Shown here: piece by piece, positions 3,861 through 64,000 of the stretch
Layout of the letters: each line of letters opens with the position of its first letter
Position numbering within the stretch: the first letter of the stretch is position 1
From: Spirogloea muscicola
Lineage: Eukaryota; Streptophyta; Zygnematophyceae; Spirogloeales; Spirogloeaceae
Reading direction: 5' to 3'
DNA: 64,000 nt
Assembly (NCBI GenBank): GCA_009602725.1
Contig: WELB01000033.1
Span: 506,856-570,855 of the forward strand
Position numbers and translations under genes: made by a program
The notes under the pieces: model-generated
What the model was told of the DNA's origin: nothing
What the model saw: only the letters and a program-made list of their open reading frames with translations
Databases searched by the model: none

Positions 3861-3932
3861 TGTGGCCGCCGGGAGTCGAGCCCGGGTCTCCACGGCCACA
3901 ACGTGGGATTCTTACCACTAAACTACGGCCAC
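3861..3932 (-). tRNA. tRNA-His (anticodon GTG)
   Basis: The minus strand folds as a full cloverleaf. The acceptor stem GTGGCCG pairs with CGGCCAC and is followed by an A discriminator. The D arm contains GTTTAGTGGTAAGAAT. The anticodon stem CCACG/CGTGG holds the loop TTGTGGC, giving anticodon GTG. The T stem CCGGG/CCCGG holds loop CTCGACT. No intron is present and CCA is not encoded, as expected for a eukaryotic nuclear tRNA gene. It closely resembles plant cytosolic tRNA-His. The G-1 base needed for histidylation would be added after transcription. Confidence 0.93.
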
Positions 3933-47866: not shown

Positions 47867-50800
47867 ATGAGGCGCTCCACGTCGCGGCGCAGCAGCGCCA
47901 GCGCCGGCCCCGCNCCCGGCCTAGCGCCGCTGCCGGCCACCGGTGGCGGCGGCGGCTCGGACCGCCACGGCCGTGCGCTGCAGGAGCTCGATGAGCAGGA
48001 GTGCCTCTACATGGACGGCGCCGCCGCTGCCGCCGCTGCGCTGCGCCGCGGAAACGACGGCTGTGACGGCGGCATGGACGTTGCCACCAGCAGCCTGCTC
48101 AGCATCCTGAGCTGCGCGGAGCAGCACCATCACTTCCGCGTGCACCTCGACGCGCAGATGCAGCAGGACGGCCAGCCGCCGCCGCCGCCGCCGCAGGAGC
48201 TGCAGCATCAGGCGGCCAGCACCTCGCATGGTGGGGCCAGCGACGAGCTCTCGTACCACGACGACCAGCTGCACAGCCTCGGCTTGGGCGGCGCTGCCAT
48301 GGATCCGGACCAGGAAGACATGGCGTCCATCCTCGAGGCGTTCTACGTGGCCGACCCCGGCCAGTCTGAGGGCAACAGCCGCGTCAGCACCACCTCGGCT
48401 TCGGCAGCCACAGACCCCGCAGGTCGGCTAACTGCAATGTGAAAAGATGAGAGCGCCAGGCGCGTGCTCGGGGAGGACACACGGAGGACACGGGAGGAGT
48501 CAGATTATGAAGTACTCCATGATAGATCTATAACTTGATGAGGCTTTAGCATAGAACATGACCTTAATCGGATTAAAAAATACTCCATAGTACACATTCG
48601 CGAGTACAAACAGAGGAGCGCCGGCGAGATAAACTTACCAGAATGTGTCTAGGCTGACAACCTCTATGGCTCCACCGTGACTGCGCTGAATTATATCGGG
48701 CTCCTGCCATGCTTTAAATGCCCAGTTCCCAAGCCTGCCTCTGAACACAATAAGATTGACATATTCTTACGTGGAGGTGGTGCCGCAGACTCAGGCCTTG
48801 ATCCGCCAAGGCTGGCCCGCCGCCGGGTGTCCGAGAGGAAGCGGCCAGCGAACAGCACGAGCTGCTTCAGGGGCGTCACGCACCACTGCCGCACAGGGAG
48901 GTGGGAGAGTCATATCTGGTGAGCCACTTCAAGTCTACTCTTCTCCGCACCAGCTGAAGTTGGCCGGAACTGCTCGATGTAATGCCGTCACAGCCCGTCT
49001 CGAAGAACTTGACTACTTTGTCACAAGGTCGTTGTGGATGCTGATAGGGGGTACGCACAGTTAGCACAGTAGTCAATACGCGCTCAGTCAGTACCTCCAT
49101 GTGTAGGGAAAACGGAAGGCAGCTCTACCTCGGCGGCTTTGACTCTGGTATGCTTGAGTTTCAGACATCTCAAGAGCTACTGTAGACCAGCATGTCCAGC
49201 AGCAGCACTTGCTCAATATCGATAGTGAGAGTGACATGAATTGAGCAGCATCGAGGCCCAACTGGTTCTGGGATTTTGACAAATCGCTGTTATGTAGAGG
49301 GACATGTTGTCTTGGCAAAGAGACTGCCAGGTCGGCAGGTCCTGTCTATCTCTGCTGTGGGGCTCCCTTATTTTGTCCATGTGCAGAGGAGCAGGCTGCT
49401 CTTGCCTATGACATAGCTGCCATCAAGTGCAGGTAGGCAAGCTGCCCATTCTGAGTCCCCTTGCAGCAATACATCAGCAAGTTGCTCGTGCATGTGGATG
49501 AAAATTGTGGAGTTGAAGCGATGTATGAGTGCAAAGTGCTGAGACTGGCATCTCTCTAAGTGTGCATTTGCGGTCATGCTCAGCTGTCTTCACTGTCACT
49601 CACATGTTTGAAGACCTTCGCATTCAACAACTGACAAGGCAGGCATAGCCACCTTGGAATCATCTACCGTTTGTATGCAGAGGAACTGGTGCTGTCACGA
49701 ACCTGTCCATTGACAACTACCGCCCCCACTTTGCTGAGATCTGTGAGCATCCTGGAGCACCAATGTGCAACCCCTGCTCTAGCCGTGTGAGCCAATAGCA
49801 TCGAGCTGTGCGTGCCCCACTGCGGAACCAGATCTCTGGGGTATCCTTGTCAAGTCCTTCACGCAGAATAGGTGACAGGACAAGCATCAAACCTGCTGGT
49901 AGCTGCGGTGTCAAAGGAGGAGCTGGTCATATCCCTTCGCCGACACAGCAAAGGCTTCTCGCGGGGTTCCTCACGCTATCGTGGAGTCACACGCCATCAG
50001 AAGGTCGATTCAGAGTTTTTGCTCAAACAGATTCAGTCCTTGACTTGCCAGCTTCTTCAGCACTAGAACATGCAAGTCTTGCTTGCATTGATTTGCTCAG
50101 TGCAACTGGACAACTATTATTTACTTTGACGCAAGCACATTACTGATTCTACTCCTCATCTAGCTGGTAAAGAACTGGACTCATCCTCTGCTTATCAGGC
50201 GACAACCGGAGATACCCTCTGATCGCCATTGCCATCTGTACAGGGCAAATGGGAGGCAAGGATTGGGCAGCTTCAAGGGAAAAAGTATATGTACTTAGGC
50301 CTACATGACACCGAAGAGGAGGCTGCAGCCGCCTACGATTGCGAGGCCATCAGGTATCATCAGCATGCCAGTGCAGCTGCAGCATACCTGGCCCGTGCCT
50401 GCAACTCTGATTACCGACAGTGCAGTCAGATTCTTCACTGTGTGACTCACGGATGAATTCCACGTCGAGCAGGCAAAAAGGGCAACAAGCGGTCACCAAT
50501 TTCGACATTGCCCTGGTCAGCTGCTGATATTCAGCTCTAGTAGCTTGTGTTGCTTCTTACGGGTTCTGGCTGCGCAAGCTACTGCTGAGTGCTGCAAAAG
50601 GAAGAATGATGTAGCCATATCGCGCTCATCAGTATTGATCCTACATTCTCTTCAATATTGTTGAATCAGAACAGTCATGGTGCCACTCCAAACGGCCTTG
50701 GAGGCAAACAGGTAGTTGTAACCCTTGTATATGCATTTTGCTGTGACCGCCAATGAACAGTACTCGGCGGCGCCCAGCAGCCAGCACCAGCGACCACAGG

Positions 50801-51111
50801 AGGAACCTGCTCTGCATCATCACCTCCAGCACCAGGAGCAGCTCCTTGGTGAAGCCCAGGGTGAGATACCGGGAGACCACCCCTCCTTCGGGCAGCCCTC
50901 GGACCAAGGGGGCGGGAGGCAGAGTGAGAGCGACAGCCCACCATTCCTCTCAGCCTGCTTCGAGAGCCGACCCTTGGGCCTGGCAGCCAAGAGGCGGATG
51001 CTGAGGATCCAGAAGCAGCACCTGCGATGGCCATCCGTTGAGCAGCGTGCGAGGCCACGGCATAACACCTCCTCTGCTGGCAACTCAAGAGCTCTGAGTC
51101 ACCCAGCTTAA
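47867..51111 (+). CDS. Double-AP2 transcription factor, AINTEGUMENTA/PLETHORA-like
   Basis: Nine exons in phase (47867-48422, 48789-48918, 49107-49147, 49387-49432, 49681-49784, 49903-50003, 50244-50353, 50473-50515, 50761-51111) give about 493 residues, with an in-frame N at 47914. The first 185 residues are Ala/Gly/His/Gln-rich. The first AP2 repeat reads [40 protein letters not shown] and [10 protein letters not shown]. The linker has [14 protein letters not shown] and [20 protein letters not shown], the linker typical of the ANT group. The second repeat is [32 protein letters not shown] and [17 protein letters not shown], then AVTNFDIAL. The tail is Gln/His-rich. Such factors bind DNA through both repeats and control growth in land plants. 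The two very short exons in repeat 1 are typical of this family. Confidence 0.92.
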
Positions 51112-51818
51112 AGAGAAATTGTCTTTCAAGTGATTTGCAGCTACTCTGTGCATCGCCAGTTGTGGTCATCAGCAGGAATCAATTGCACTTGCCATCATTT
51201 GTACTCTTGAGCTGATCTCAATATGGCATGGTGCATCAACTTCCACCCATGGTCCTGACTACGGGAGGCTTCCTGCAGCATGTGCTGCAATTTTGTTGAC
51301 GAGTTTAAATGAGGGTTTGGAATGCATCAAAACGTAGGCATATCTGCAATATCCTGCTTCACAGAAGCCTCCCCGAGGCTCGACTTGAACCCCTTAGCTA
51401 TAAAGTGCAGAATGATGTCAAGTTGTTGGCAAACATCGTGCAAAGTCTTATGTCTTAATGTCCTAAACCAAAGAGCAGAAGTCATGGACGCAATAAGAAG
51501 CTTCCTGCAGACATCTCAAGGATGGCTAAAGACCTCATTGGAAGCTGATATATTTACATGAACAAGTATGCGGCAACGTGAGAATTGGTCTTACAGACGG
51601 CGATAATTTGTGCCTGTGCTGGTTCATACAGAGACACCAATGAGAGCGACTTTGCGAATCCCAAAAGAGGAACTACGAGCACGCCTCAGTGCACAGTAAA
51701 TTTCCATCAGAGATTGTGCAAGCTCGTCCAGACCGCAGGTGCTTTAGGAGCACAGCAAACCACATAAACCACAGTGCCATCGATCCTAGCTGGACCTGCT
51801 CACATGCACACAACAACT
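51112..51818. other. Intergenic, AP2 3' flank; no gene seen
   Basis: Lies between the stop of the AP2 gene and the distal TPP aptamer of the convergent THI4 gene. No gene was recognised. It probably includes both 3' UTRs. Confidence 0.4.
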
Positions 51819-51907
51819 TGGCACACTCCCTACGCAGGAATTATCCTGATCAGGTGACAGGGTATGATCTCAGCCCGAGCAGTGGTGCTCGAGCACCCCT
51901 GGTGCCA
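51819..51907 (-). promoter_or_regulatory. TPP riboswitch aptamer, THI4 array copy 1 (distal)
   Basis: On the minus strand this is a complete thi-box. The P1 ends TTGGCAC and GTGCCAA pair. P2 begins ACCAGGGGTGC. A short P3 (CTCGAGCACC/TGCTCGG) leads into the invariant CTGAGA, then TCATACCC. P4/P5 follows with ACCTGATCAGGATAAT and CCTGCGTAGGGAG. All the conserved ligand-binding blocks of the THI element are present. It lies downstream of THI4 and in the same sense, 555 bases past the stop codon. It would bind thiamin pyrophosphate and probably acts on 3'-end splicing or processing, as known for plant THIC. Confidence 0.93.
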
Positions 51908-51994
51908 AAAGTAAGTCAGTACAGGTGTCAAAGACATCAAAGAATGACAGAGGCAGCCTGTTTCCTGGTCACACAAAAACCGAACACGACCCAT

Positions 51995-52086
51995 TGGCAC
52001 ACTTCCTTCGCAGGCATTATCCTGATCAGGTCTTGGGGTATGATCTCAGCCCAAGCAACAGATTTGCCTGAGCACCCCCGGTGCCA
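51995..52086 (-). promoter_or_regulatory. TPP riboswitch aptamer, THI4 array copy 2 (middle)
   Basis: Minus strand, with P1 ends TGGCAC and GTGCCA, P2 start ACCGGGGGTGC, a P3 arm of medium length, then GGGCTGAGATCATACCCC and the P4/P5 blocks ACCTGATCAGGATAATG and CCTGCGAAGG. All core positions are kept. The gap to copy 1 is 87 bases and to copy 3 is 75 bases. The repeats are similar only within the aptamer, so the flanks have diverged while the folds were retained. Confidence 0.93.
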
Positions 52087-52161
52087 GATGGTTGTACGTC
52101 AGTATCAGAACAGACACCACAAGCAGCATAGACCACCAGACGATGACATTTAGACAGACAA

Positions 52162-52269
52162 GGCACTTCCCTCCGCAGGCATTATCCTGATCAGGTGGTA
52201 AGGGTATAATCTCAGCCCGCATCATGCAAAGGCCAAAAGCCTTGCAGTATGCCGGGCACCCCCAGTGCC
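52162..52269 (-). promoter_or_regulatory. TPP riboswitch aptamer, THI4 array copy 3 (proximal)
   Basis: Minus strand, starting 192 bases after the THI4 stop codon. P1 ends GGCACT and AGTGCC pair. P2 begins CTGGGGGTGCC. P3 is extended and can fold (GCATACTGCAAGGC with GCCTTTGCATGATGC). The core has GGGCTGAGATTATACCC, ACCTGATCAGGATAATG and CCTGCGGAGGGAAG. Of the three copies it has the longest P3 arm. Confidence 0.94.
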
Positions 52270-52461
52270 AACCAACCAAAGCAAGCACACTGACAACGAG
52301 GACAATGCTTGTCCGCCTGTCTGCCAGGCTCACGTCTAGCACTCCTCACATCCATCACTGTGCACACAATAGCTAGTTGTTGCTACTGATGCAAGCAATG
52401 CAAATCATCAGTCTGGCAAGAATCAGTGCAGCACAGGAGGAGGGGTGGGCAAAGTTGGCTG

Positions 52462-54136
<1,675 letters not shown>

Positions 54137-54176
54137 GGATGAGTGCAAGCGAGAGGGAGGGCTGAGAGCGGCAGGA

Positions 54177-54177
<1 letters not shown>

Positions 54178-54215
<38 letters not shown>

Positions 54216-54222
54216 TGGAGCT
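54178..54222. repeat. GGC triplet run in the THI4 5' leader
   Basis: An uninterrupted GGC run of about 12 units just upstream of the THI4 start codon (read as GCC on the THI4 strand). It is probably in the 5' UTR. Confidence 0.85.
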
Positions 54223-54731
54223 GAAGAAAATGGTGGCTAAGAGCGACTTGGCACCGCAACCGCAGAATCAAGGGGCAAGCAGGTGCCTGCTGCCGGTGCC
54301 CCATCGCGGCCCGTGTCCATGAGCTGCCTCTCACCATCCCGCGTGCTTTCCGCGCTGTGAAAGGCCAGCCCGATGAGAAACTTGAGTGGCAATCTCCACC
54401 TAACGATGCAGACACGGGACGGCCCTCCGGCTAACGTGCTTGGCCCCCTTCTGCCAAGACCGGCCCCCCGGGTGCATGCGCGACAGTGACGTGTCGCGGT
54501 GACAGCGGATGCCGTTGTCGTCCCGTCGGTCGTCGTCGCGACCGCTGGAGATGGGATCCGAGCCCTGCGCTGATCCCTCTCGAAGGGGGCCCTTCGCCTC
54601 CCGCCGTGGTCGTGGCTGATGCCGCCTCACGCCGTCACAGTTGGGCTCGTGCTCGCCGCGGCGATGCCGACCGCCTCGTCTCACTGGTGGGAGCGGGTCT
54701 ACTGATGACAACAAACGGGCTCCGACGAGAG

Positions 54732-54882
54732 AGAAAGTGCTCGCCCATTGAGAATAGGGGCTGGAAAAGCCAGCCCAAAAAAGAATCAACAAAGGACGAG
54801 AAGGGGGCCAGGGAAGCGTTAAGAGAAACAAGCACACTGAGGCACAAAGCAGCTACGGATCACTCGATAGCTCTCTTCTAAG
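54732..54882 (-). mobile_element. LINE 3' tail in the THI4-THIC intergenic region
   Basis: Matches the reverse strand of 4740-4910. It contains GAAAGTGCTCGCCCATTGAG, hairpin GGGGCTGG-AAAAG-CCAGCCC, and then the tail up to the first bases after the ORF stop, but no ORF sequence. It is a severely 5'-truncated insertion between the divergent THI4 and THIC starts, so it sits within or near both promoters. Confidence 0.8.
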
Positions 54883-54990
54883 TGAGAGAGAGAGAGAAGG
54901 CGCGCGGGGCGCATGAATTGAAAGGGAGGCCAATTCAAGCCAATACATTGTTCAGGCAGAGTCGAGTGCAGACTAAACAATGCTACATAA
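54883..54990. repeat. Dispersed repeat, type unknown
   Basis: The segment GGCGCGCGGGGCGCATGAATT, then GGCCAATTCAAGCC and ACATTGTTCAGGC, recurs at 10050-10130, and in part at 7645-7700. It lies directly next to the LINE tail here, as it does at 10.1 kb. It is preceded by a (GA)n run at about 54883-54897. It could be a separate small element or an extra part of one LINE subfamily. Confidence 0.6.
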
Positions 54991-55090
54991 TACGAAGTGA
55001 GAAAGACCACCCCCCCCTTCCACTAGGGGTCCCGTCTGAGGATGACGAACGTCGAGTAAGCATCACTGCGGCCCCGCCTCCCTCCGCGCA

Positions 55091-59065
<3,975 letters not shown>

Positions 59066-59469
59066 TTGGACTACTAAGCACGTGAGTGGCCTATAACCAC
59101 CCTTTTACATGAGTGCGTGCAAATCCGGTACGTCTCCTTCTGCGTTCCAGAAATGGGCAGTGTGCATACTTCAAGCGTCTGTTGTGCTGTAATCAAGAAT
59201 TCTGCAACTTGCAGTAATCTCCTTCGGCGCTACGTTCTCAGTCGTCTCTACTATGGGCTTTTGCAGGTACCAGAGCATCACGCATAGGCAGCTCAGGGTT
59301 TATTTGAGTTGGATGCTCGTTTTCAGAGGCTGCTGTAGTCTGCATGCTAAGTCGTACTGGTCATAGACTGCTCTTGGATGCGCCACAGCAGGCTTGTTTG
59401 CCCTAGACCTTGGAACAGCAGGTTGCATTGGATTGTTTTCCATTTGTGAAGAGTTGTGGCTAACTATTT

Positions 59470-59589
59470 CGGCACCGGGGGTGCTTGCTCGAGGTTCACC
59501 ATCCCCAATACAGGGGGTGGTGACTGAGAGCAGGCTGAGAGAGTCCCTTACAACCTGACCAGGTTAAGACCTGCGGAGGGAGTGTGCCG
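59470..59589 (+). promoter_or_regulatory. TPP riboswitch aptamer, THIC 3' region
   Basis: A thi-box in the sense of THIC, in the 3' UTR or 3' flank as in land plants. P1 ends CGGCAC and GTGCCG pair. P2 begins CCGGGGGTGC. A long P3/P3a arm (TGCTC to GAGCA, with inner CACCATCCCC and GGGGGTGGTG) leads to GGCTGAGA, then GTCCCTTACAACCTGACC and CCTGCGGAGGGAGTG. The GTCCCTT form is like plant THIC elements, whereas the three THI4 copies have ATACCC. The L5 loop reads TTAAGA where the THI4 copies have ATAATG. In plant THIC, TPP binding changes splicing in the 3' UTR and lowers expression; the same mode is likely here but not shown. Confidence 0.95.
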
Positions 59590-60179
59590 AATGTTCGTTG
59601 TGGTTTGTGCTGTGCAGGACTTTGCAGACGTTCATGTGCAGGTCGTAATTAAGTGGAGGAGTGCAATCACTGTTTCACATGTCAGGCATCTTGCATTTAT
59701 AGCTTGCTATGCTCACTTTCTTTTTGTTGCATCGTTGTGCTCTTGCATGCAAGTGCGTCCTTCACTAGTAAGGTGGTTGCATCGTATCAGATCAAGCATC
59801 TGGCCAATTGTAAAGCGTGTGGTCAGTGGGCGTGGTTTTAGTCTAGTGGCAAGGATAGCTGGATGGGCTGACTGCACCTCCATTTTGTCAAGTGGATGGG
59901 ATGCAGTGTCCCTCTTGCTGCTTGTTATGAAACCAAAATGAGACAACCGCTTTGGCTTTTGTGAGACTTAGTTGGGCGTAGGCTGGGTTGTTGTCTGCGC
60001 TGCAGCGCAGGAAGTACTTAGCTTCATGGAAGAAGCAGCGTGGATACTTGTGTCCATTACTGCCTCTGTACAAGTCTATCCTCTGACCAGCCTTGCAAAG
60101 AGGAACAGTTACTGGTGCTGTGATACTGCCGCCGAATCCTTGCACCTGAAGAAGAGGCAGTTGTGGCCTTGGTTGACTG
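59590..60179. other. Intergenic; no gene seen
   Basis: The 3' flank of THIC beyond the aptamer. No gene, repeat or RNA was recognised. Confidence 0.4.
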
Positions 60180-60540
60180 GCCTCTCCCACAGCCACCGCC
60201 CTCTCCTGGAAGCGTCTTTCTTCCCCCCCTTTCATAGCCTCCGTCCCCTTTGGAAGAGCTCGGTTCATCTGATTACCACTTCTCACAGCCCGACGCCTAA
60301 CTGTCGAGGAGCCCTTTCTTGGCGAGGACGAGCCAGTGGAAGGCCGAGCTTTGGCGGTGGCCTCCAGCTCCGTCAGCTCTGTCAGGGCGACATCATTCCG
60401 CCGGCTAGCTACTCAGACTTGCATCTCCTAACTAGAGGTTACTGAGCGTTCCCTGGCTGACGTCTTAGTCTTAGTCCTTCGCACTCCGGCTCCTTCAGAC
60501 CTTGTTCATTCCTTTGGGCTGGCCTTTCACAGCCACCAGT
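60180..60540 (+). mobile_element. LINE 3' end, second subfamily
   Basis: Ends with a frame encoding SFGGGLQLRQLCQGDIIPPA and YSDLHLLTRGY with stop at 60443-60445, the same variant C-terminus as the minus-strand copy at 11952-12082. The tail contains CCTTGTTCATTCCTTTGGG and the hairpin GGGCTGGCCTTTCACAGCC at about 60517. It is 5'-truncated and lies just upstream of the GOS1 gene. Confidence 0.65.
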
Positions 60541-60736
60541 CAATCTGGTATGGAGTGTGTTGTGAGTGATGGCGGTCTGGGTACTAAAATCCAGTGGGCT
60601 CCAGTGGTGGGAGCCGACGGCGAGGCACCGTCGGGGACGTTGGCGGCTAGGTCTCAGTCCCGGAACGAGGGGCGGAGTGCTGTGCCCTCCCGCGCGGTGC
60701 GCCGCGCGGCGCGCCCGCCGGGCCCGGCGGCCGGNC

Positions 60737-62389
60737 GAGGCGCGGAGGCTGGAGGGCGACCTGGACGTCAAGCTCTCGTCTTACGCCAAGCTCGGCGGCA
60801 TGCTGGCCCACGGCGGTGCGGCGGCGCGCGCCGCGCTCACCCCCCTTCTGCTTCTGCTCGCGCCGCCGCCGCTGCCATTGTCGTACCTTTGCCGCCTGCG
60901 CGGGCGCTGACGGCGAGTGGCTGGCGGCGGCGGCGCCGGGGGCTTAGGCAGTGTACGTGGAGTCCGGGCCCGGCGGCGGCGGGCCAGGAGCCGGCGGCGG
61001 AGGCGGCGGCGGCGGCGGCGGCGAGGTGGGGTCTTGGAAGAGCATGGAGATGGAGATCGAGGCGCTGCTGGAGAAGCTGCTGGACGTAAACGACGCCATG
61101 GGCCGCTGCGTCGCCGCCACCACGTCCACCACGTCCGTCACGCAGAAGCTCGCCCGCCACCGCGACATCCTCCACGAGTTCACGCAGGTCTGTCCCAGCA
61201 CTCCCCATGCCGCTGTGCTTGCCTCTGCTGCGGCCATGGAGACTGCGGCGACGACGACTGCCCATGTCTCATGGGGTGCCCATGAAGGAGGCCGGTGATG
61301 GAGGCCTCCGTGGTGATAAGGGTGTTGGGCGCTCGGTGCTGGAGCCGACTGCAGGAGTTTCGACGGACCAAGGGTAACATCCGCTCGCAGAGGGAGCACG
61401 CGGAGCTGCTCGTCTCGGTCCGGAACGACATCAGCGAGTACAAGGTCGCTCCTTCCGCCTGGCTCGCATATACCGACCTTTAGCTTGCCCTGCTTTCCAG
61501 ACTGCCGAATGCCAAACCCACTGCAGCGGCCTTGGCTGTTGATGGTGGCTTGCCGAGCGTCCTTGAAGTTCCATATTGAGCTAGGCCAGCCTTTGAGCCT
61601 GACCTCCTCCTCGTCCGCCGTTTTGTAAAGTTTTCATAGCATTTTAAAGACAGGTCATTCTCGTAGTCCATAGCAAGATCTTGCGCCAACTGTCGGCTTG
61701 AGCACCAGCTCCGTGCATTCCGCTATCTACAGCAACTTTGTGTGGTTTATCGTTACTGTCAGCAGGCCTCTGCAGGGGGTGCATCTCCCATGCCCGGCCT
61801 GCTCCGTGAGCGGGGCGCCATCCATGGTAACATTGCGCAGGTACTCTCCAGGGCGATGGATGGCACGCAGCACTATGCGCAAAGATAGACATAATTGCAC
61901 CACTAGAGTAGGATTATGTCACTGATTTTGAATCACTTGTTCTGCAGATTGACGAGGTCATCAGCCAGGCGGAGGCCACCAAGGGGGCGCTGGCGGCACA
62001 GAAAACCCTGTTCCTGGATGTCCAGTCCCGGCTTAAGGTTCTCGGGGACCGTTTTCCAGTTGTACGAGATATTCTAGGCAAGGCCCTTGACTTGCCTACC
62101 ATGATGGTCTCTTATCCATCCTCAAGGTGCTGCCTTTCTAGTCCTCAGTCCTCAGTCCAGAATCAGCATCACATTGTCTAATCCAACCCTCACCTTATGC
62201 TCGCCCGTCAGGCAACTTGTATGACCCACAGCATCAGCTCAGAACCTGGTCCTGGTCAAAACTCAGCCTGCATCTGCAACGAGTGGTGCAGGTGCGATTC
62301 GGAGACGACGGAACAGGGACACGATCATCCTTTCGGCTGTCATCACTGCATGCACGCTCTTTCTGATCATCTATTGGTTATCGAAATGA
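60737..62389 (+). CDS. GOS1: Golgi Qb-SNARE GOS1-like (membrin/GS28 group), 5' end unresolved
   Basis: A tail-anchored SNARE of ER-Golgi and intra-Golgi vesicle fusion. Exons 60737-60815 (EARRLEGDLDVKLSSYAKLG), 60952-61187 (SWKSMEMEIEALLEKLLDVN, TTSVTQKLARHRDILHEFTQ), 61355-61444 (EFRRTKGNIRSQREHAELLV), 61763-61840 (GLLRERGAIHGNIAQ), 61948-62077 (IDEVISQAEATKGALAAQKT, LKVLGDRFPVVRDIL) and 62292-62389. The last encodes RRRRNRDTIILSAVITACTL and FLIIYWLSK, a C-terminal membrane anchor. Every block matches plant GOS11/GOS12. A poly-Gly insert lies in exon 2. The start codon is missing because of an N at 60735, directly before the readable coding sequence. The last intron uses a GC donor (62078). 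Confidence 0.94.
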
Positions 62390-62987
62390 CACTCTTGCCT
62401 TTCTTGCTACGTCCACCAATGCCATCTGCCTGTGGCTGTAGTGGCAACCATGGCCACTCGTGAATTATCATGGTCAAGCACCACATCATACAGTTCGTGT
62501 ATAGTCTGTGAAATCTCAACTGTCAGCTCCATATACGTGCAGACACTATGAACCCCGTTCTAGACAGTGTCTGAGCGGAGCATGTGTCAAACGAGCAGCT
62601 TTTAGGAGCTGAAGCCCTTGAAAGCTTCTGCAGGGCAATCCCAACACCTGACCAAACTCAAGTGCAAGCTTATCAAAGGTTCTCAGCTTAGTCATTATTG
62701 CAAAGTGCTAAATGGACACGGCGGTGCTGACTGATGGATGGCAATATTAGTAGGTGCCAAAGGCAGGCAGGATATGGCAGGCATAATCAAAATGACTTGC
62801 ATAGCCAATTATGTAAATCCGTGACCTCACAACTCGAAATGGTTGTCTTGGCAATTTGTGTGCAACATCGGGGCCGAGATAATGACTGCAGAGCTTTGAA
62901 AGCAGAAAAAAGCAGACCTTTGGGACTTGAACATCCTTGCCCCTGCTTGGTAATTGCAGCGTGCCTCTGCAAGGGAGTGCTGGTTGA
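62390..62987. other. Intergenic between convergent GOS1 and INH3 genes
   Basis: Holds both 3' UTRs. No gene or repeat was recognised. Confidence 0.4.
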
Positions 62988-63800
62988 TTATGCCTTAGCA
63001 GGGACCCCATCCCCACGCCGTCCGTCCTCGCCCTGGCTCCAAGTGGAGCAGGAGCCGTTGTGGTGGTCGCGGCTGTCGCTGCTGCCCTCCTCGCCTTCGT
63101 CTTCTGCAGAGCTGGACTCGTCGCTGCTACTCTCGCCCACCGGCTTATCCTTGTGAAAGATGCAGCACTCTGCAGCAAGCGCAGGCGAGCATCAGTCGCT
63201 CAGCTTCCGCAGATCATCAGCTGAGGCCTGTTCATGCTAGCGCAAGTCGCCCAGCTTGTCATTGCCGGCAGAAGAACAAGTAAAGGTGTAGGTGGACCAT
63301 GTCAGGATCCTGGAGGAGCAAGAATTCCCACAAGGATGGCCACTCTACCCTCGGTGGGCCTCCACAAACGATATCACCGTGCACGGTCTCCGGTCCTCAC
63401 TCTTGGAGCTCTTGCGTCCGAGGCTCTCGTTGTCGATGGTGTCCGGCTGCCACGTCACGCGCTTCTTGCGGCGTGGCCGCAGTCGCAGCACGACGCGCTC
63501 CTCTGCACGCCACCACCGCGGTGGCGTCGGGGATCAGCAGGCCGCCACCGGCGTGGTAGCCGGCAGCGGCGTTGCCGCGCGACGTCCCAGAGACAGTCGG
63601 AGTGGAGCCGCAGGCGAGACGCCGTACCGGCGGTGGCATCAGAAGCTCCACGGCTTCGAGGCTCCGGAGCCGGCGCGCTCACCTGGCGGCTTGTCCCCCA
63701 CCACGCAGGTGAGCGTGGCGCTGACGCTGCCTGCGGCGGCGGCGGCGGCGGCGGTGGCAACGGCGGGGACGAGGCTGCCGCGGCCTCCCGCCTGCGCCAT
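62988..63800 (-). CDS. INH3: Protein phosphatase 1 inhibitor-3 (PPP1R11/YPI1-like)
   Basis: A small disordered regulator that binds PP1 catalytic subunits. Three exons in phase (63800-63683, 63502-63401, 63169-62988) give 133 residues. Exon 1 encodes [20 protein letters not shown] and SATLTCVVGDKPPG. Exon 2 encodes EERVVLRLRPRRKKRVTWQP with the RVxF-type docking motif KRVTW at residues 53-57, then DTIDNESLGRKSSK. Exon 3 encodes KCCIFHKDKPVGESSSDESS and an acidic Ser-rich tail. The family signature (L-L-KKKV-W, VDNE-GRK-SKKCCIFHK) is clear. The gene is short enough to be missed by length filters. An N at 63827 lies 27 bases upstream of the start. Confidence 0.93.
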
Positions 63801-64000
63801 GCACCGAGGCGGCTCCCGGCGGCGGCNCATGGCACTCGTGCTAGCATGGACGTGGCGGCGGCGCTGGCGGCGGCGGTGGCGGGGTGGCGGCGGCGGCGGC
63901 GGGCGGTCCGGCCTCGCAGCTGGTTGCCCGGCCAGGCGCAGTTACCTTGGTCGTGGAAATTAGCTGACTCGATGTTACGGGGCGGACTTGTCGAGACAGC
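63801..64000. other. GC-rich flank upstream of INH3
   Basis: Contains GGC/GCC runs and a single N at 63827. It is probably the INH3 5' UTR and promoter, or the edge of a neighbouring gene outside the window. Confidence 0.35.

Follow-up and report, generated by a model that had tools for sequence, protein, structure and literature searches.

The THI4 and THIC genes

The window, by which we mean the whole 64,000-nucleotide stretch of DNA analyzed here, carries an intact THI4 gene of Spirogloea muscicola on its minus strand. Five exons, joined by hand into an open frame (exon 1, 53888..54136; exon 2, 53364..53735; exon 3, 53093..53188; exon 4, 52779..52991; exon 5, 52462..52626, with the stop codon at 52464-52462), encode a protein of 364 residues that is 99% identical to EukProt sequence SM000017S02789 (s17:253227-254896), fitting a homeologous locus on contig C17. 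The homeolog protein matches the Pfam family Thi4 at 379.4 bits. The best solved relative of the THI4 protein, aligned at residues 61 to 341, is 1rp0, which we take to be the Arabidopsis enzyme. The protein retains the cysteine motif QSCMDP, as seen in its Cys-type relatives, including 1rp0, and the cysteine of this motif is presumably the sacrificial one. Plant-like THI4 proteins are also labeled Citrobacter portucalensis and Hirondellea gigas (presumably an amphipod) in public records, and these labels probably reflect contamination.

THIC is the divergent neighbor of THI4, head to head with it on the plus strand, and has its start codon at 55091 and its stop codon at 59063-59065. It matches SM000285S10800 (s285:29400-33363), fitting contig C285, where the annotated homeolog has ten exons. 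An aptamer for thiamin pyrophosphate (TPP) follows the gene at 59471..59588 (plus strand; RF00059 match 59467-59599), with a score of 55.1 bits that is just above the gathering score of 54.3 bits, a long P3 arm, and a folding z of -4.51. The distance from the THIC stop codon to this aptamer is 405 nt in the window and 407 nt in the C285 homeolog, and the latter distance, together with the ten annotated exons, places the aptamer in the THIC 3' UTR. This element was absent from the initial annotation of the window, which had described only the aptamers of THI4.

Three complete TPP aptamers in series downstream of THI4

Five matches exceeded their gathering scores when the window was scanned with Rfam 15: four TPP aptamers and one tRNA gene (3861-3932, minus strand, 60.6 bits), the last of which is not part of the finding. 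Three of the TPP matches lie on the minus strand, each across the full RF00059 model (1-105). Aptamer 1, which has a long P3 arm, has P1 ends at 52269-52162 (match 52273-52151, 69.4 bits, E 1.5e-11), aptamer 2 at 52085-51996 (match 52089-51985, 62.1 bits, E 8.9e-10), and aptamer 3 at 51906-51820 (match 51910-51809, 63.4 bits, E 4.3e-10). A more permissive scan found no extra TPP elements at 50500-64000, and sub-cutoff Rfam matches such as SNORA70 (20.7 bits versus a cutoff of 40) were disregarded.

The array starts approximately 190 nt past the THI4 stop codon on the same strand as THI4. The initial annotation had proposed three minus-strand thi-boxes at this place, in the sense of THI4, with paired P1 ends, CTGAGA, and CCTGCG, and had named the RF00059 covariance model as a check. 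All three scores clear the gathering cutoff, the named features are present in each aptamer, and the ends given there fall within one base of the P1-to-P1 limits. CUGAGA, the core ACCUGAUC.GGAUAAU.CCUGCG, and paired P1 ends occur in all three. By model match and sequence features, the elements are thus members of the TPP aptamer family sited on the THI4 strand in this order, each complete, of one class, in series, and linked in sense to a thiamin gene. They would lie within one THI4 transcript, and each would be expected to bind TPP.

Separate single-strand folds recovered the expected helices, with z scores of -2.82, -2.36, and -3.21 for aptamers 1, 2, and 3, respectively; 2, 4, and 0 of 200 shuffles folded as well. 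Base pairing was counted on the nine THI4 rows of the genome only (eight of them distinct) because the THIC rows were misplaced in P2 of the alignment. Standard pairs made up 97.0% of 168 cells, and the last P4 pair was nonstandard in five of the eight distinct rows. Double changes were seen in two pairs, one at the inner end of P1 (CG/UA) and one at the outer end of P2 (AU/GC/GU). Of 500 shuffled alignments, 6 reached the real covariation score, 42 the number of double-changed pairs, and 489 the number of further pair types. Covariation gives modest support since most pairs never vary.

Some RNAs classified as TPP riboswitches prefer thiamin or thiamin monophosphate (TMP) (PMC9481103), and three aptamers that sensed different thiamin-related ligands could act as a logic gate. 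This is very unlikely, however, as CUGAGA and CCUGCG are identical across all nine THI4 aptamers of the genome.

Triple arrays at three homeologous loci

A search of the whole genome assembly (153 Mb, 471 contigs) gave at least 12 RF00059 matches, all over the cutoff, among the best 49 of 3764 first-look candidates. Contigs C33 (which holds the window), C17, and C285 contribute four matches each, three at THI4 and one at THIC, so that nine of nine THI4 aptamers at the three homeologous loci are above the cutoff; the THI4 and THIC aptamers lie on opposite strands at every locus. At least 18 Thi4-family matches were found when 33 of 53 candidates were scored, and eight of these are exons at the three loci. 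The other ten reach at most 30.4 bits and extend no further than position 57 of the 235-position profile; although eight of them pass the family cutoff, we take them as a shared nucleotide-binding motif. Among the candidates scored, therefore, the three THI4 genes of the genome all carry the triple array. Each of the three arrays has a contig of its own, and their sequences are not identical; the array is neither a chance occurrence nor an assembly fault.

A genome triplication has been reported for S. muscicola (PMC7994812), and the three copies of the locus are consistent with it. Between homeologs, aptamers at the same position are 97 to 100% identical, whereas aptamers at different positions are 75 to 85% identical. 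By this comparison of identities, the tandem array predates the genome triplication. Units 2 and 3 are most alike by BLAST, with similarity from the motif TACTGAC onward, but the tree grouping of aptamers 2 and 3 has a support of only 46, and we therefore do not claim an order of duplication.

Constraint on the array was assessed from the variable columns of a three-way alignment of the three homeologs of this one species. The aptamers together vary at 9 of 288 columns (1/107, 4/92, and 4/89 for aptamers 1, 2, and 3, respectively), and the coding exons vary at 34 of 1092. Introns vary at 67 of 515 columns, the leading 3' UTR (52461-52294) at 26 of 167, and the downstream DNA (51779-51480) at 60 of 298, and the aptamers are less variable than all of these (Fisher p, 1.1e-6 versus introns, 4.1e-6 versus the leading UTR, and 2.8e-11 versus the downstream DNA). 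Since they vary like coding sequence and less than introns or downstream DNA, all three aptamers look to be under selection. The spacer between aptamers 1 and 2 (52161-52087; 5/75 columns variable) does not differ significantly from the aptamers (p 0.18), whereas that between aptamers 2 and 3 (10/87) does (p 0.004), and the 20 columns directly before aptamer 1 (52293-52274) are invariant among homeologs. Both 52293-52274 and 52161-52087 may consequently belong to the switch.

The reading that we favor, and consider moderately probable, is that the array is a 3' UTR TPP riboswitch of the land plant type on THI4 that was duplicated in tandem to three aptamers before the triplication, with all three kept, and that TPP represses THI4 through it. 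The differences in constraint bear on several alternatives. One aptamer could do the switching, with the others as backups or lightly used, and aptamer 1 is both the most conserved and the highest scoring; we regard this as unlikely, given that aptamers 2 and 3 are near coding-level constraint and above the cutoff in all six of their copies. The aptamers could also belong to another transcript, for example, as the leader of a downstream minus-strand gene. In the C17 homeolog, the locus as annotated indeed ends near the THI4 stop codon, and the array is thus missing from the public annotation. The downstream DNA is highly variable, however, and the four reading frames tested thereabouts had no Pfam match (which covers Pfam-matching genes only), making this alternative highly improbable.

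Another possibility is that the aptamers bind or once bound TPP but have lost control of THI4, as reported for diatom THIC. Diatom genes with conserved or predicted 3' UTR TPP aptamers are described as unresponsive to thiamine (PMC9544697), and by analogy we treat this as the main warning against a regulatory reading of the THI4 array. Nonetheless, constraint on the Spirogloea aptamers is well above that of the introns, and plant relatives are reported to use 3' UTR TPP riboswitches (PMC10226581), so that loss of control appears improbable compared with the TPP-repressed riboswitch that we favor.

Candidate splice and processing signals

Plant 3' UTR TPP riboswitches are described as acting on splicing and 3'-end choice (PMC10226581). 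In the plant THIC plan given there, the aptamer without TPP pairs with a 5' splice site upstream and a stable short mRNA results; with TPP, the 5' splice site is freed and the processing site is spliced out, leaving a longer, less stable mRNA. The Spirogloea THIC 3' UTR matches this plan in part. The sequence CTTTTGCAG|GTACC at 59258..59271 (plus strand), a putative 5' splice site, is complementary to the 3' strand of P5/P4 of the aptamer (duplex, -17.3 kcal/mol), is the best upstream complement of the aptamer, and is invariant in the three homeologs, with a donor score of 8.5 and an acceptor score of 12.9. A fraction of 0.21 of 200 shuffled targets paired as well (0.11 for a shorter target), and the match to the plan is suggestive only. 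A second CAG|GT, near 59641 and downstream of the THIC aptamer, had a shuffle fraction of 0.04.

No sign of this plan was found for the THI4 array. No strong donor was found between the THI4 stop codon and aptamer 1, where the best GT shared by the homeologs scores 2.4 versus 6.8 to 10.4 for real donors, and no THI4 stretch paired with P4/P5 beyond chance, either upstream (0.105 to 0.635 of shuffled targets as good) or in the spacers and downstream (0.52 to 0.74). One stretch, 52308-52299, matches the P5 region of aptamer 1 over 10 bp, but its pairing energy of -16.8 kcal/mol weakens to -11.6 kcal/mol in each of the other two homeologs, and this candidate was rejected. TGTAA sites after the array (51595 and 51558) were considered as poly(A) signals; this reading was dropped because neither site is common to all three homeologs and UGUAA is reported as absent from the streptophytes studied (PMC1868727).

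Signals of another kind lie around aptamers 2 and 3. The branch-point-like motif TACTGAC precedes aptamer 2 at 52098..52104 and aptamer 3 at 51915..51921 (both minus strand), identical in all three homeologs, and no further CTRAC motif occurs among 978 positions of the THI4 3' UTR. The THIC stretch has three CTRAC motifs, one of which (CTAAC, 59460-59464, invariant among the homeologs) closely precedes the THIC aptamer; a fraction of 0.054 of 25-nt windows contain CTRAC. Putative acceptors on the minus strand include a CAG between aptamers 2 and 3 (51965..51967; score, 5.6 to 7.9), with its AG in all three homeologs, CACCAG|GGG inside P1/P2 of aptamer 3 (last base, 51899; score, 6.9 to 7.5), and a CAG past aptamer 3 (51796..51798; score, 6.2 to 8.1) that is directly followed by a GT at 51795 (donor score, 4.5 to 6.8). 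An upstream acceptor-like site at 52386 (minus strand; score, 6.3 to 6.8) is also common to the homeologs.

These motifs allow a more specific form of the favored reading, in which a TPP-folded aptamer loops out between a branch point and an acceptor and brings the acceptor into reach, while the unfolded RNA would turn to an alternative acceptor, for instance, that within aptamer 3. A CTRAC on the upstream side and an acceptor on the downstream side flank each of aptamer 2, aptamer 3, and the THIC aptamer, and the branch-to-acceptor distances of 134, 120, and 154 nt, respectively, shrink to 44, 33, and 36 nt without the aptamers (90, 87, and 118 nt), so a folded aptamer could bring the acceptor into range. 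Regulation at the 3' splice site or branch site is, moreover, a stated eukaryotic riboswitch arrangement (PMC10043782). Several observations weigh against this form. The pattern was noticed after the fact, and the two TACTGAC motifs do not count as independent, since units 2 and 3 arose by duplication and resemble each other by BLAST from TACTGAC onward. The 25 nt preceding aptamer 1 contain no CTRAC, and no acceptor of the scored list lies between aptamers 1 and 2. The acceptor-like sites near the aptamers score 5.6 to 7.5 in the window, below 12 of 13 real acceptors (at least 8.0), and forcing P1 of aptamer 3 left predicted pairing and access at nearby acceptors unchanged. We therefore hold this form only tentatively, as a doubtful refinement. 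Candidates for an aptamer's own expression platform are thus the motifs at aptamers 2 and 3, with none at aptamer 1. The larger proposal of a multistep eukaryotic riboswitch, in which at least two of the three serial 3' UTR aptamers would gate 3' splice-site choice by looping out and TPP would control several processing decisions per transcript, is likewise possible but rather unlikely.

Proposed mechanism and relation to known systems

In the favored reading of a triplicated, TPP-repressed riboswitch, an ancestral THI4 3' UTR aptamer would have given rise to three tandem copies ahead of the genome triplication, with all copies retained and each binding TPP. At high TPP, ligand binding to the aptamers would alter splicing and/or 3'-end processing of the THI4 3' UTR, yielding a less stable mRNA and less THI4 through negative feedback, and three sensors in series could make repression deeper or steeper than a single one. 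The initial annotation had suggested that three sites might sharpen or widen the response or govern several splice or polyadenylation choices, all of which would be compatible with such an array. THI4 encodes a costly vitamin B1 enzyme; the Cys-type enzyme is described as single turnover (PMC9544697) and is spent in that one turnover. Tight control of THI4 may be needed since each protein works once, and, with three sensors compared to the one reported in related plants, the cell may switch THI4 off unusually tightly.

Among riboswitch classes, only that for TPP is described as convincingly demonstrated to function in eukaryotes (PMC10043782). Outside the angiosperms and some of the gymnosperms, plants are reported to have a TPP riboswitch on THI1, the equivalent of THI4 (PMC10226581), and single ones are reported on THI1/THI4 of nonvascular plants and chlorophytes (PMC4260697). 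A THI4 riboswitch was thus to be expected in Spirogloea, but its copy number was not. The Spirogloea aptamers share with the land plant 3' UTR riboswitches of THIC and THI1/THI4 their class, their thiamin genes, and their position past the stop codon, and Spirogloea has them on both THIC and THI4. In contrast to the land plant type, the Spirogloea THI4 gene has three aptamers instead of one, and the sequence preceding them yielded no strong 5' splice site.

The initial annotation took eukaryotic TPP riboswitches to be normally single. More than one per gene has, however, already been reported, for Saprolegnia NMT1, where two TPP aptamers in 5' UTR introns are thought to have arisen by duplication (PMC5882874). 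NMT1 likewise has more than one TPP aptamer per eukaryotic gene, but with two copies, in 5' UTR introns, in an oomycete, and on another gene. Tandem TPP riboswitches in bacteria number 213 representatives in one survey, with one triple (PMC9481103), and triples are reported as 2 to 8% of contiguous arrangements for thiE, thiD, thiM, and thiC of Bacillota (PMC12452182). The bacterial tandems also consist of same-class aptamers in series; however, they occur in the leaders of operons and have expression platforms of their own, whereas the Spirogloea array is in a eukaryotic 3' UTR. Three complete aptamers of one class per transcript are also found in a bacterial 5' UTR system for another ligand.

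The initial annotation knew of no triple array in a eukaryote, and among the matches listed for the literature on TPP riboswitches in tandem or in plants and algae, we also found no report of one. A search for literature naming both riboswitches and Spirogloea returned nothing; in both cases, most subscription papers lie outside the coverage. The only multiple eukaryotic array found reported is the double array of Saprolegnia NMT1, and a triple eukaryotic array has likely not appeared in print. A retained triple array would provide a natural test of whether serial sensors sharpen eukaryotic control of RNA processing. With three aptamers on THI4 and one on the adjacent THIC, the gene pair forms an internal comparison.

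S. muscicola belongs to the Zygnematophyceae, the algal group closest to land plants. The presence of 3' UTR TPP aptamers on both genes in a zygnematophyte is consistent with the plant arrangement having arisen before land plants did. The start codons of THI4 (54136) and THIC (55091) are 954 bp apart, and the region between them (window 54136-55091) is a possible shared promoter for the two thiamin branches.
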